From contig MEOG01000105.1 of the NCBI GenBank assembly GCA_001769125.1, positions 124,001 to 188,000 on the forward strand: a DNA stretch of 64,000 bases, in the 5' to 3' direction. The notes beneath the pieces were generated by a model. It ran no database searches. It saw nothing but the letters and a program-made list of their open reading frames with translations, and was not told where the DNA came from. Made by a program: the position numbers and the translations under genes. Within the stretch, counting starts at the first letter, position 1. Each line of letters begins with the position of its first letter. This DNA comes from Bacteroidetes bacterium GWF2_35_48. Lineage in GTDB: Bacteria > Bacteroidota > Bacteroidia > Bacteroidales > GWF2-35-48. This document shows, piece by piece, positions 15,773-52,769 of this stretch.

Positions 15773-15826
15773 TTGTATATTATCGACAAATGAAATATAT
15801 TTGCTGCAAATAAGCGACAAATGAAA
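15773..15826 (+). promoter_or_regulatory. hipBA promoter with candidate HipB operators
   Basis: TTG (15773-15775), a 20-bp spacer, then TATATTTG (15796-15803): a near-ideal Bacteroidota promoter. A direct repeat CGACAAATGAAA occurs at 15784-15795, inside the spacer, and at 15815-15826, across the hipB start codon. Between them a palindrome TTTGCTGCAAA (15800-15810) overlaps the -7 box. This layout fits autorepression by HipB. The leader would be only about ten bases. Confidence 0.7.
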
Positions 15827-16114
15827 ATTAAGAATCAAATAATATTTCCGAAATACCAGAAAATATTCGACCAGCTTGGAGAAAATATTAAATTGGCTAG
15901 AAAAAGACGAAAGCTGACAATAATACAAGTATCGGAACGTGCAGGAATTCACAGAGCAACCCTTGACAAGATAGAAAAAGGCGAAGCAAGTGTTTCTTTA
16001 GGAGCATATTTTAATGTGCTCAGAGTATTAGGGCTTCAGAGTGATTTTTTAAAATTGGCAGCAGATGATGAGTTTGGAAGAAAATTACAAGACCTTAAAT
16101 TATTAGGAAAATAA
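15821..16114 (+). CDS. hipB: HipB-like XRE-family antitoxin
   Basis: 97 residues. A Cro/CI helix-turn-helix spans about residues 22-78 (IKLARKRRKLTIIQVSERAGIH, then RATLDKIEKGE). It is the expected DNA-binding antitoxin that neutralises HipA and represses the operon, possibly through the direct repeats around its promoter. Its stop overlaps the hipA start by one base (TAATG), so translation is coupled. The start is set by the ATG directly after the promoter; no other in-frame start would fit the -7 box. Confidence 0.88.
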   Translation: MKIKNQIIFPKYQKIFDQLGENIKLARKRRKLTIIQVSERAGIHRATLDKIEKGEASVSLGAYFNVLRVLGLQSDFLKLAADDEFGRKLQDLKLLGK

Positions 16115-17376
16115 TGGCTAAAGGGAAGTTCAACATATATGTTTATGCCGATTGGATTGGGCTTGGTGGTCCAACATTAATGGGTGTTCTCTCTGCTCAT
16201 TATGGAAAAGGCAGGAAGTCATTCTGTTTTGAATATGAACCCGGGTGGTTGAAGAATAAGAATAGAATTGTTTTTGATCCCGATATTGAGTGGTATAGTG
16301 GGACTCAATTTCCAAACAATAAAGAAAATTTTGGTGTTTTTCTTGATTCAATGCCGGATACTTGGGGAAGAACATTGATGAAACGAAGAGCTGCTCTGGA
16401 ATCTAACGAGAAAACCGGAAGAAAAATTTTGTATGATACTGATTATTTGCTAGGGGTATATGACGAAAGTAGAATGGGTGCTTTAAGATTTAAACTTGAG
16501 CCAAATGGTAACTTTTTAGATCATTCAAAAGTTTTTTCCATTCCGCCTTGGGCAAATATCAGGGAACTTCAACATGCAGCCAGTGTCGTTGAATCTGATA
16601 ATAGTCTTGATGATGTAAGAAAATGGCTGGCAGTATTGATTGCGCCGGGTTCTTCATTAGGTGGTGCACGTCCAAAAGCAAATATCATTGATGAAAAAGG
16701 AAATTTATGGATAGCAAAATTTCCATCTAAGAATGACATTATAGACAAGGCAAAATGGGAATTTCTGGCTTATTTGATTGCTTTGGATGCTAAAGTAAAT
16801 ATGGCAGAATCAGTAATTCAAAAGGTATCAGGAAAATATTCTACATTTTTCACCAAAAGATTTGATAGAATTGGTTCTCAAAGGATTCACTTTGCATCAG
16901 CTATGACAATGACAGGTTATAGTGAAGACATCTTAAGAGAAAAGGATTATATGCCAAGTTATCTTGAGATTGCTGACTTTATAAGTACTTATGGATTTAA
17001 TATAGATAAGAATCTACATCAGTTATGGAGAAGAATTATTTTTAACATTGCTGTTTCAAATACGGATGATCATTTAAGAAATCATGGATTTATACTTAAA
17101 GAAAAAGGATGGGAGCTTTCCCCCGCGTATGACATTAATCCTTCAACAGAAAAAAGCGGACTTGCATTAAACATTGATATGGATAGTAATGAATTGGATT
17201 ATAATTTGGCATTTAATGTTGGAAAATATTTTCGATTGAATAAATCTGAAATGGAAATAATTAAGGAAGAAGTTGTATCATCTGTTCAAAAATGGAAAGA
17301 AATTGCAAAAAAGCTGAATATCTCGAAGAGTGAAATTAATATAATGGAAGCTGCATTCAGAATAAAATTAAAGTAG
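16114..17376 (+). CDS. hipA: HipA-family Ser/Thr kinase toxin
   Basis: 420 residues, close to E. coli HipA (440). The N-terminal subdomain has VYADWIGLGGPTLMGVLSA. The kinase core carries PGSSLGGARPKA near residues 182-193 (the loop with the autophosphorylated Ser in HipA), IAKFPSKND with the ATP-binding Lys, NTDDHLRNHGF near 318-328 (catalytic Asp) and SPAYDINP near 339-346 (Mg-binding Asp). All key motifs are present, so it looks active. The known HipA target is GltX; targets vary within the family. It has no neighbour downstream on its strand and is followed by a palindromic element. Confidence 0.92.
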   Translation: MAKGKFNIYVYADWIGLGGPTLMGVLSAHYGKGRKSFCFEYEPGWLKNKNRIVFDPDIEWYSGTQFPNNKENFGVFLDSMPDTWGRTLMKRRAALESNEKTGRKILYDTDYLLGVYDESRMGALRFKLEPNGNFLDHSKVFSIPPWANIRELQHAASVVESDNSLDDVRKWLAVLIAPGSSLGGARPKANIIDEKGNLWIAKFPSKNDIIDKAKWEFLAYLIALDAKVNMAESVIQKVSGKYSTFFTKRFDRIGSQRIHFASAMTMTGYSEDILREKDYMPSYLEIADFISTYGFNIDKNLHQLWRRIIFNIAVSNTDDHLRNHGFILKEKGWELSPAYDINPSTEKSGLALNIDMDSNELDYNLAFNVGKYFRLNKSEMEIIKEEVVSSVQKWKEIAKKLNISKSEINIMEAAFRIKLK

Positions 17377-21130: not shown

Positions 21131-22360
21131 TTAACCTTCGCACTGTTTTAATGATTTTTCAAAGATGCTTACACATTCTCTAATCTGTTGCTCATTAATA
21201 ATTAACGGAGGAGCAAAACGAATAATATCGCCATGAGTAGGCTTAGCGAGCATGCCATTTTCAGCCATAGCAACGCACACATCCCATGCTTCCTTTCCAT
21301 CTTTAGGTTTAATAATAACTGCATTGAGCAAACCTTTTCCTCTGACAAGGGTAATCATATCCGTCTGTATTTTTGCTACTTCTTCGCGGAAAATTATACC
21401 CATTGCTTCAGCATTGTCAGCAAGCTTTTCTTCTTTTATTACATCCAGAGCAGCAATTGCAACTTTAGAAGCAAGAGGATTACCTCCAAATGTTGAACCA
21501 TGTTCTCCCGCTTTAATAGTAAGCATTATTTCATCATCTGCTAAAACACATGAAATAGGCATTGTTCCGCCAGAAATTGCTTTTCCTAAAATAAGAATAT
21601 CCGGACGAACCGCTTCATGATCACATGCAAGCATTTTTCCTGTTCTTGCAATACCTGTCTGTACTTCATCTCCAATAAATAAGACATGGTGGGATTTGCA
21701 CAATTGAGCAACTTTTTTCAGATAACCATCATCCGGAACAAAAACACCGGCTTCTCCCTGAATGGGCTCAACAAGAAATGCAGCAACATCAGCATAAGCA
21801 AGTTCTCTTTCGAGTGCTTCAATATCATTGTAAGGAATGGTAACAAAACCCGGAGTGAATGGACCATATTCTCTGTATGCATCTGGATCTGTTGACATGG
21901 AAATTATCGTAATCGTACGACCATGAAAATTGTTTTTACAAACAACTATTTTTGCATCGCTGGAACGAATATTTTTTACTTTGTAAGCCCATTTACGAGC
22001 AAGTTTCAATGCTGTTTCAACAGCCTCTGCGCCTGTATTCATGGGCAGAACTTTATCGTAACCGAATAATTTTGTTACATATTCTTCAAATTCGCCAAGC
22101 GTGTTATTATAAAAAGCGCGTGAAGTAAGCGTTAATATTGAAGCCTGTTCTTTCATTGCTTCAACAATTTTTGGATGACAATGACCCTGATTTACCGCCG
22201 AATAAGCAGATAAAAAATCATAATATTGTTTACCCTCAACATCCCATACATGAACGCCTTCACCTCTTTCTAAAACAACAGGTAGCGGATGATAATTATG
22301 TGCGCCGTATTTTTCTTCTCTCGCGATGTAGTCTGCTGAAGTCATTTTGATTGATTCCAT
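21131..22360 (-). CDS. rocD: ornithine--oxo-acid aminotransferase
   Basis: 409 residues from the ATG at 22358-22360, close to the family length of about 400. The open frame continues 60 codons further to 22540, but that part is hydrophobic and unlike the family, so I take the internal start ([20 protein letters not shown]). Motifs: [44 protein letters not shown], and PLP Lys260 in LGKAISGG. Transfers the delta-amino group of ornithine to 2-oxoglutarate, giving glutamate semialdehyde, in arginine/ornithine use or proline synthesis. A strong terminator follows. No neighbouring arginine genes. Confidence 0.92.
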
Positions 22361-22555
22361 AATATTTTTATTTAAGTTTTTTGAAATTCCTGCAAATGTG
22401 GAAATAAGTTTCTGATTTTTCAAAGGAAATAAAAATTTTATGTTTCTTAACATGTTTTTTGCCTGAAACGCTAAGTTATTCATAAATTGAAAGATAATAA
22501 ATAAAAAGAACAGATGTAGTAAAAATGAGTTATTCGACAAAATTTGTGAACGTTT

Positions 22556-22653
22556 AAATACCCGGCTATTTATGCAATGGGAACACCCTCGAGGTTTATT
22601 CCCGGCAGGAGCGCTGAAACCTCGAGGGTATTATCCGTTTGAAAATAGCCGGG
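22556..22653. repeat. nested perfect hairpin element
   Basis: The outer helix CCCGGCTATTT (22561-22571) pairs with AAATAGCCGGG (22643-22653), 11 bp. The inner helix ACCCTCGAGGTTT (22585-22597) pairs with AAACCTCGAGGGT (22617-22629), 13 bp. Both are perfect. A 19-base loop contains TTCCC (22599-22603), which could pair with GGGAA (22579-22583). It lies between rocD and a broken small ORF. No U-tract follows. I do not recognise it. Confidence 0.75.
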
Positions 22654-22704
22654 CTTCATTTGTCTTAGTCTTAAATAGTGTTTATTATTTATTATCCACT
22701 AATA

Positions 22705-22863
22705 ATGTCGAATAACCAATTAAATCTAATAAATGAATTTATCAAAGACGAAAAAATTGAAAAAATTTCGGATGAAAAATATGATTACATTGTTGATGCA
22801 ATAGACACAGTAGCAAAAAGTATTTTTCATTTATCATGCTGTGCAAAAAGGGCACAAAATTAG
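22705..22863 (+). pseudogene. possible N-terminal remnant of a regulator
   Basis: 52 codons beginning MSNNQLNLINEFIKDEKIEKISDEKYDYIVDAIDTVAKSIF. The acidic, helical start with YDYIVDAIDTVAKS resembles the N-terminal segment of some Bacteroidota PAS/LuxR-type regulators, after which the frame ends and nothing recognisable follows to 23080. It may be a remnant of a larger gene or a short real protein. An upstream in-frame ATG at 22678 also exists. Low certainty. Confidence 0.3.
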
Positions 22864-23080
22864 TCAGCTCATGGGTGCGTGAGGAAAATATAAATATCTT
22901 TTCCTTTATGTTTGTAATAAATAAGTATAGCTCCCTGCTGATTTATTGTTTTTGCTACAGGATACATAAGTTTCAGTTAATATTATATCATATTTTTATG
23001 CAAATAGAATATGAATTTTTTTTTTACCAGCCCTGCAAGTAACTATTTATGAAGTTCAACCCTGATTAGCAGAGAAAAAT

Positions 23081-24211
23081 TCAATAAAAACAATTCGGTT
23101 TTTTCGCATGTTTTTCAATTTCAACGCCCATGTCTATTGCTTTTTTGTAATCAACGCAGGCACCGTCGAGATTGCCTAAAGCATTACGTGCAAGCGATCT
23201 TTCATAATAAGCTTCTGCAAATTCCGGATCCAGCTCTATTGCTTTGCTTAAATCTATTTCAGAATTTTTAAAATTTTTGATTTCAAAATAGGCAAAGCCT
23301 CTTTCAAAATAGTAATCCGGATCATCGTTTTGCATTTCTATAGCTTTTGAAAAATCTTCGATTGCGCCTTTTAAGTTTTTCATTTCGAGTTTTGCAGAGC
23401 CTCTTTCAAAATAAGCGTCTGCGTATTTCGGATTGATTTCTATTGCTTTTGTGTAATCGTCTAATGCAGATTTATACTGCTTAAGCGCACTTTTAACAAT
23501 AGCTCTTCCGTAATACGCCTCAAAATGATTCGGAACGAGTTCTATAACTTTGTTAAAATCTTTGATGGCATTTTTAAAATTTTTCATTTCTGTTTTACAT
23601 AAAGCCCTGTTGAACCACGCATCTGGAAATGAAGGGTTAAGTTTTATGCTTTCAGAATAATCTTTTTCTGCTCCTTCAAAGTCCTGAAGCGCATCTTTAC
23701 AAAGCCCCCGGTTAAAATAGCTGGCATAAAAATCTGCTTTTTTTTCTATGGATTTATCGAACCAATCAATCGCTTCTTTAAAATTATTACTGCCAAACAT
23801 AGCTTTTCCCATTCCGTAATAAGGGAATGAGAGTTCCGGGCTGTCTTTAGGTATTAAATCTATACAATGCTGAAAACATTGCAACGCCTGTTTGTGTTTG
23901 TTTAAATCATCTGTATATGTAGCGCCAAGATAGTACCAGGCTTTATACAGGGACGAATCGAGTTTCAGGCATTTTCTGAATCCTACAATGGCTTGTTCTG
24001 TCATTCCCAGCTCTTTTTTACAAACAGCATTTTTCAGCAAGGCATCTTTATCATCCGGATTTTCAGCAATGATTTTTTCAAAAAGAGGAAAGGCTTTCTG
24101 ATAATCATTTTTATCATAAAATTCTGAAGCCTGCTTGTACAGCTCATCATTTTTTTGAGCGAACATTAAAATGGGAAGACATAATATTAATGAAAATAGT
24201 AAATTTTTCAT
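23081..24211 (-). CDS. exported tetratricopeptide-repeat protein
   Basis: 376 residues. Signal peptide at the N-terminus (LLFSLILCLPILMFAQ, cleavage near residue 18). Ten or so TPR units follow with regular A-Y-x-x-x-G/R-x-A motifs (WYYLGATYTD, WFNRALCKTEMKN, AYFERGSAKLEMKN). It acts as a protein-interaction scaffold, probably periplasmic. It stands alone on its strand, and the partner is unknown. The codon for the initial Met sits directly before the hydrophobic segment, which supports the start. Confidence 0.87.
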   Translation of the reverse strand: MKNLLFSLILCLPILMFAQKNDELYKQASEFYDKNDYQKAFPLFEKIIAENPDDKDALLKNAVCKKELGMTEQAIVGFRKCLKLDSSLYKAWYYLGATYTDDLNKHKQALQCFQHCIDLIPKDSPELSFPYYGMGKAMFGSNNFKEAIDWFDKSIEKKADFYASYFNRGLCKDALQDFEGAEKDYSESIKLNPSFPDAWFNRALCKTEMKNFKNAIKDFNKVIELVPNHFEAYYGRAIVKSALKQYKSALDDYTKAIEINPKYADAYFERGSAKLEMKNLKGAIEDFSKAIEMQNDDPDYYFERGFAYFEIKNFKNSEIDLSKAIELDPEFAEAYYERSLARNALGNLDGACVDYKKAIDMGVEIEKHAKKPNCFY

Positions 24212-51937: not shown

Positions 51938-52078
51938 TCAAGATGTTCCACCACCAAGATGTTCCACCACCAAGATGTTCCACATCTTGAGATTGTCTAA
52001 TAGTATTCTATGTTTCAAGATGTGGAACATCTTGTTCGGAACATCTTGCGTCACTATCTCAAGATGTGGAACATCTTG
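51938..52078. repeat. REP palindrome cluster on the 3' side of the RAYT gene
   Basis: Perfect 19-bp palindromes CAAGATGT(TCC or GGA)ACATCTTG occur at 51971-51989, 52016-52034 and 52060-52078. Partial units CAAGATGTTCCACCAC lie in tandem at about 51939-51970, and a half-unit GGAACATCTTG lies at about 52038-52048. They lie between the RAYT coding region and the peptidase gene. Confidence 0.9.
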
Positions 52079-52093
52079 CGTGTGTACGCTGCG

Positions 52094-52648
52094 TTACTCA
52101 ATATCTATATCATGATAATGCATGATTTCTTGCTTATGGCAATAAAAGAAATTGTCCCTATTTTCGAACCAGTCAACTGTGTCGAATATATTTTCAAATG
52201 CTGGTTTGTTATTCAGAATATCAGAAAAGGATGAAAATTCCCAATCTTCAGGTTTCTTTTTTATTCCATGATGAATAGGGTTTCTGTGAATATATAAAAC
52301 AACTTGCCTTAGGTAGCTTTCAGAATCAACATGCAATCTTCTAAAGGGTTTTTCGAACAAACCACCATGCCTGCGTTCCTGATTGTTGATAGCTTTTGAA
52401 TAGCTTGTAAATAAACGCCGGAATGATTCTGCCGGTTTTGTGTTTTCTTTTATTTTTACCAGTAAATGAAAATGTGTTGGCATAAGGCAATAAGCGAAAA
52501 CATGCATGCTTTCTGGTAAAATTTCTTTACACCGCCGCATAAAAAAGAAATAGTTTGACTCGCATTTGAAAATCTGCTCGCTATTTATACCACGATTAAA
52601 AACGTGGTAAAATTTTTGTGCCTCCATATTTTGGCGATAGTCTTTCAT
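52094..52648 (-). CDS. REP-associated tyrosine transposase (RAYT, IS200-like Y1 family)
   Basis: 184 residues from the ATG at 52646-52648. The open frame runs 39 codons further upstream, but that stretch translates the REP palindromes, so I reject it. Motifs: FYHVFNRGINSEQIF at the start, YCLMPTHFHLLVKI carrying the HUH-type His pair, GLFEKPFRRLHV, and YLRQVVLYIHRNPI with the probable catalytic Tyr. The domain is complete. RAYTs cut and join single-stranded REP DNA and spread REPs. Both sides carry clusters of the same 19-bp palindrome (51938-52078, 52671-52763), so gene and target family are present as a unit. Confidence 0.92.
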   Translation of the reverse strand: MKDYRQNMEAQKFYHVFNRGINSEQIFKCESNYFFFMRRCKEILPESMHVFAYCLMPTHFHLLVKIKENTKPAESFRRLFTSYSKAINNQERRHGGLFEKPFRRLHVDSESYLRQVVLYIHRNPIHHGIKKKPEDWEFSSFSDILNNKPAFENIFDTVDWFENRDNFFYCHKQEIMHYHDIDIE

Positions 52649-52670
52649 TATATCTGTTTTGCAAGATGTT

Positions 52671-52763
52671 CCCCTAGACTGCACAGATGTTCCACATCTT
52701 GAGATAGAGAACAGTTTTACCCTAACACAAGATGTGGAACATCTTGGTGGTGGAACATCTTGC
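52671..52763. repeat. REP palindrome cluster on the 5' side of the RAYT gene
   Basis: A perfect palindrome CAAGATGTGGAACATCTTG at 52728-52746, a near copy with one base missing at 52684-52701, and half-units at 52671-52682 and about 52747-52763 (GGTGGTGGAACATCTTG). Same family as 51938-52078. Confidence 0.9.
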
Positions 52764-52769
52764 ACAGTG

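Follow-up and report, generated by a model that had tools for sequence, protein, structure and literature searches.

A hairpin-bearing MITE family, probably ISL3-dependent, in a Bacteroidales genome

The nested hairpin at positions 22556–22653 of the window (the whole 64,000-nucleotide stretch of Bacteroidetes bacterium GWF2_35_48 DNA analyzed here) is, with high confidence, passenger sequence carried inside a non-autonomous miniature inverted-repeat element (MITE). On sequence grounds, the enzyme that moved this MITE most likely belongs to a separate bacterial transposon. We class the element as a MITE because it has terminal inverted repeats (TIRs), here about 23 bp long, occurs in several copies and belongs to a family with 8-base duplications. 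Ends of full-length elements bearing the same TIRs are also present in the genome. The initial annotation had given 22556–22653 as the extent of the feature; the hairpin does lie there, but only as the middle of a 190–191-bp element at 22527–22717.

The element, its copies and their target sites

The element (22527–22717) was delimited by its paired TIRs and by alignment with six further copies, two of them in part; its plus-strand orientation is, by convention, that of the hairpin finding. The TIR pattern on both sides is GGTTATTCGACA-N4-TAGTGRA. The left TIR (AGTTATTCGACAAAATTTGTGAA, 22528–22550, plus strand) has two mismatches to this family pattern, and the right TIR (GGTTATTCGACATTATTAGTGGA, 22695–22717, minus strand) is an exact instance; over its 23 bases it does not differ from the right TIR that the full-length transposon has in contigs C10 and C62. 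A search of the window with the pattern gave two matches against 0.01 expected by chance, and the whole genome contains 56 matches at up to three mismatches, compared with one for the reversed-pattern control.

A homology search had been proposed initially, with further copies to decide on mobility, and it returned seven copies of the hairpin element in the genome (eight matches, two of which are the halves of a single copy, C123, split by an insertion). In the aligned part, identity between the window copy and each of the other six is 80–93%. Five of the seven copies measure 180–191 bp and two reach 435–436 bp through a nested insertion; these short, dispersed copies have no room for a transposase gene. 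The nested sequence is itself an element, found at different points of two hairpin MITE copies (L020:1088–1523 in C123 and L034:1089–1523 in C122). Its ends are GGGTCTGCTGAAAA...TTTTCAGCAGACCC, with GTGTCTGC as the first bases in C123, and it is flanked by duplications of about 6 bp (TAAATA; TACTTA/TAATTA), constituting a second MITE-like family. Both C122 and C123 entered the seven-copy alignment only with the part to the right of this insertion.

The TIR-bounded units are taken to be insertions because copies carry perfect 8-bp duplications. In the genome itself, all 8 bases agree in 6 of 18 TIR pairs and at least 7 of 8 in 9 of 18; in G149 (the Bacteroidales MAG of record RPRQ01), which has the same TIR with other interiors, the corresponding figures are 13/20 and 16/20. 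When right flanks were shuffled among elements, agreement at 7 or more bases was reached by means of 0.9 (own genome) and 0.8 (G149) pairs, with a maximum of 5. The 18 pairs are those read in the loci of the best 30 of the 56 TIR matches plus the hairpin copies, leaving out apparent pairs in C92, C121 and C126:77461. Where a G149 element had more than one candidate left end, the end giving the better duplication was counted, which slightly favors the counts of 13 and 16. The duplicated targets are mostly AT-rich.

Within the hairpin subfamily, C13 has a complete duplication (TGAATTTT on both sides) and C124 one of 7/8, while the five other copies match at only 1–4 of 8 bases. The window copy is among these five: its flanks agree at 3/8, which is no recognizable duplication, and its left end is mutated. 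Together with the four further copies at 1–4 of 8, this counts against the MITE reading; by their sequences, the hairpin copies lacking a duplication are old or recombined. The suggestion that the window holds a young element is thus doubtful, and the window copy is probably not young, because its duplication match is just 3/8 where two of the seven copies still keep theirs.

The likely full-length partner and its probable assignment to ISL3

In the assembly, the partner transposon is seen only through its ends. The left end, where an ORF starts (MEFIEA...), runs for 86 bases in C59 and 91 bases in C11 before the contig stops; the right end opens C10 and C62, with 95 and 87 bases, respectively, up to its outer edge. 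The 8 bases just outside the TIRs are ATTATTTT at C59 and C10 and ATAATTTA at C11 and C62. Since these 8-base duplications are identical within each contig pair, two full-length copies, collapsed by the assembler, likely lie at C59/C10 and C11/C62. The MITE interior is unlike that of the full-length element, and only the TIRs are alike, a point against the MITE reading.

The right end of the full-length element encodes a 25-residue tail, RGYKNIANFMNMIYFLGNEFKFSFH, with its stop codon inside the TIR. Compared with 1742 ORF fragments from ISL3 loci, the tail found its best two matches in the C-termini of L166 and L118 (52% over 25 residues; E values of 8.2e-5 and 1.3e-4, respectively); L166 is a match to an ISL3 transposase and L118 a match to PF01610. 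Among the seven ISL3 tails listed, four (L093, L144, L155 and L166) have a stop inside the right end, as does the tail studied here; L118, in spite of being a best match, and L121 lack this arrangement, and L145 is truncated at a contig end. The TIR of L155 agrees with that of our element at 18 of 22 bases. The ISL3 elements identified here in genomes of the same order and class likewise have TIRs that start with GG and 8-bp duplications, and the family described here combines 8-bp duplications with ISL3-like TIRs. A de novo TIR search of 60 ISL3 loci gave a pair in 16 of them, two of which (L104 and L163) are implausible; 16 of 60 is not usable as a rate, since a duplication of at least 7/8 was a precondition.

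The 25-residue tail alone matches no Pfam or NCBIfam model, the PF01610 profile has no match in the assembled genome or in G149, and a 404-residue ISL3 transposase used as query has none in the assembled genome. The absence of PF01610 from the assembly is to be expected if the body of the transposon is missing: the readable part of the transposase consists of the last 25 and the first 6 residues, with the middle absent. In another genome of the order, G170, ISL3 pieces lie at contig ends, but they are of a different ISL3 type. From the C-terminal tail, the TIRs and the duplication length, the transposase of the full-length elements probably belongs to the ISL3 family. We go no further than “likely” because the body is not assembled and the assignment draws on 25 residues, the TIRs and the duplication length, which weighs against the MITE reading as well.

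In the mechanism that we propose, the ISL3-family transposase of the full-length elements would act in trans on the TIRs of the MITE and insert it, making the 8-bp duplication in the process. The nested palindrome may be a by-product of how such elements form, and any effect on the neighboring aminotransferase gene would be incidental.

The hairpin and alternative explanations

The initial annotation described two perfect helices, of 11 bp outside and 13 bp inside, and both were recovered by folding and sequence inspection on the plus strand. The arms of the outer helix (CCCGGCTATTT) lie at 22561–22571 and 22643–22653, and those of the inner helix (ACCCTCGAGGTTT) at 22585–22597 and 22617–22629. 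The 131 bases from 22540 to 22670 fold at −50 kcal/mol on the plus strand (z = −5.44) and at −51.1 kcal/mol on the minus strand (z = −6.53), values equaled by 0 of 200 shuffles in either case. Perfect inverted repeats with arms of at least 13 bases and a spacer of 3–25 occur at two sites in the 64-kb window, this hairpin and 51978. The arms of the proposed pseudoknot, GGGAA at 22579–22583 and TTCCC at 22599–22603 (both plus strand), are also positioned as described. Other members of the family are less perfectly paired: the window copy alone has the outer helix complete at 11 pairs, column 43 of the alignment being unpaired in the other six, and all 13 inner Watson-Crick pairs form in 3 of 7 copies. 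In the pseudoknot, the window copy forms all 5 pairs and the other six form 1–4 of them; complete in one copy of seven, it is not conserved. The noted lack of a U-tract agrees with a search of 22300–23100 for intrinsic terminators (a G+C-rich stem followed by a T run), which found no site; the same interval has five promoter-like sites against 4.4 expected.

Strong folding varies within the wider family. Fifteen elements were compared, namely the window copy, four copies of the same subfamily, a hairpin-less 72-bp copy, six other elements of the genome and three from G149. As whole elements they have z values from −1.9 to −8.3; with 24 bases removed from each end, some of the other subfamilies fold no better than shuffles, and a strong internal hairpin is therefore not universal.

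A structured or cis-regulatory RNA under selection, whose functional part would be the hairpin and perhaps the pseudoknot, would account for the strong folding, which is present on both strands, and for the lower variability of the stems (86 differences in 973 compared sites, or 0.088, across the seven copies) relative to the hairpin loops (141/945, or 0.149). The TIRs, however, are about as conserved as the stems (0.100, with 0.132 in the stretches between hairpin and TIR). Double-sided changes affect three pairs, where shuffles average 1.0 (25 of 500 reach 3), and the covariation score is reached by 13 of 500 shuffles; yet one of the three lies in the pseudoknot helix, leaving two in stem pairs, and relatedness alone can yield such counts. 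Two Rfam 15 matches on 22300–22900 (E values up to 1) score far below their gathering thresholds, at 19.4 bits against 90 and 15.6 against 41. A DNA search of 149 genomes found relatives of the hairpin element in its own genome only, and the C122 and C123 copies are interrupted by another insertion. The 72-bp copy in C118 has the same ends and a perfect AATTATTA duplication and lacks the whole hairpin block. Because this copy carries a perfect duplication without the hairpin, movement does not require that structure. The structured RNA put forward initially is thus very unlikely, given the inconstant pseudoknot, the distance of the Rfam scores from any threshold and a perfectly duplicated copy without the hairpin. 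A milder proposal is that selection maintains the nested hairpin among these MITEs, where it might act as a DNA cruciform or a folded RNA, for instance, and aid copy survival or alter neighboring transcripts. It draws on the slower change of stems than of loops and on the two stem pairs changed on both sides; the evidence for stem upkeep is weak and does not outweigh the C118 copy, and we consider this proposal improbable as well.

The C118 copy also bears on the idea that the hairpin block is a separate mobile unit inserted into a 72-bp MITE. C118 is the element minus the block, and short direct repeats (TTTAAATA/TTAAATA) stand on either side of the block; against this, all seven copies of the block found in the genome sit inside the MITE, and deletion by slippage across the hairpin explains C118 more simply. 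We consider a separate unit a very doubtful explanation. C118 shares its ends and distinctive bases with C13, and the block was probably lost by replication slippage between the repeats, movement continuing afterwards; slippage would be the simplest route because these repeats bound the block. There remains the footprint of a single-strand transposon: either the end of an IS200/IS605 element or a REP/BIME unit mobilized by a Y1 transposase. Hairpins, including subterminal ones, are typical of IS200/IS605 and REP-type elements, and the genome has ten matches to PF01797 (Y1 transposase), one of them in the window at 52283–52609 (C105:176283–176609). REP/BIME elements with their RAYT transposases are, like the element described here, dispersed palindromes in spacers; our element differs in having TIRs and 8-bp duplications rather than single-strand hairpin ends. 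Y1 transposition is not known to involve TIRs or to produce a target duplication, and the duplications already contradict this explanation. The palindromes at 51940–52080, next to the Y1 gene of the window, differ in sequence from the hairpin. The initial suggestion of a single-strand transposon footprint was right in that seven copies mark a mobile element and wrong as to type, since the TIRs and the 8-bp duplications of the family are those of a DDE derivative; a Y1-moved unit is extremely unlikely.

The palindromic repeats at 51940–52080 are of the type CAAGATGTGGAACATCTTG and lie beside an ORF at 52094–52765 (minus strand) that contains the PF01797 match. Together with this neighboring Y1 gene they resemble an array of REP elements and the RAYT gene belonging to it.

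Distribution, genomic setting and known counterparts

Outside its own genome, the family is known from its TIRs. The exact TIR pattern occurs in 17 stretches of the GTDB genome collection, all in the one Bacteroidales MAG (G149), and in none of the viral contigs; phages and plasmids gave no match to the hairpin element (in all four collections, records of the genome itself or of very near ones may be absent). A relaxed pattern is found in 7 of 393 genomes of the order, the source genome included, with three sites in G170 and one in each of five others; these single hits may be chance, since the reversed control gives one over all 393 genomes. Three loci of G149 (L062, L082 and L085) contain compound MITEs of about 390 bp in total, with an extra outer TIR about 110 bp beyond the usual left TIR, and that of L082 has a perfect 8-bp duplication at its outer end.

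On one side of the element is a class-III aminotransferase gene (PF00202; ORF 21131–22540, leftwards, likely with a later start), and on the other a TPR gene (23081–24211, also leftwards), which faces it with its 3′ end. In G001, a genome of the same genus, the aminotransferase region is 74% identical, and the spacer beyond the end of this gene is unalignable. No TIR with up to three mismatches occurs anywhere in G001, and its spacer has one site with four mismatches and no partner (the best candidate has nine). A precise empty site was not found in G001, which counts against the MITE reading. An ORF of 52 codons at 22705–22863 (plus strand; MSNNQLNLINEF...) begins at an ATG within the right TIR, extends past the edge of the element and has no Pfam match; it is possibly a gene remnant given a start by the insertion. 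Elsewhere in the window, at 15821–17376 (plus strand), a small helix-turn-helix-like ORF is followed by one of 420 residues, a pair which we take to resemble a toxin-antitoxin pair of the HipB/HipA type.

Among published elements, the nearest to ours is a 187-nt MITE of Microcystis aeruginosa PCC 7806 that depends on ISL3, described in PMC11448079 as having a stem-loop, 8-nt direct repeats and ends (GGCTCTTCG) that match the ends of an ISL3 transposase in the same genome. Our element resembles it in length, stem-loop core, 8-nt repeats and ISL3-matching ends (GGTTATTCG); it differs in organism and sequence, and the partner ISL3 element is whole there and represented here by its ends alone. Two putative open frames are reported for the Microcystis MITE in the same text. 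A 179-bp MITE paired with ISMac21 (ISL3) in Methanosarcina acetivorans is likewise similar in size, number of copies (several) and partner, although it is archaeal; its line in a table of PMC3852290 also gives 22 and 7, which we take to be the repeat and duplication lengths. Among ISL3-family elements proper, Tn7546 has the inverted repeat GGGTCTTCGGA and an 8-bp duplication (PMC9782665), and ISPpu12a is listed in a table of PMC4133298 with an 8 that we take to be its duplication length. Unlike these, our element has no transposase, and the TIRs are all that it has in common with the full-length element of its own genome. Passages of PMC9208149 add nothing on MITEs, and a literature search, judged largely without full texts, found no publication naming this MITE sequence family.

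To judge from sequence comparison, this is a new MITE family, probably ISL3-dependent and of a kind already published. ISL3-dependent MITEs being in print, its interest is modest. The 8-bp duplications can be used to pair up contigs broken by a collapsed transposon. An eye-catching structured element can be explained without a new class of RNA, the dispersed copies, TIRs and duplications being what decides. The finding adds a MITE family whose several subfamilies differ in their interiors, present in this genome and in a Bacteroidales MAG.
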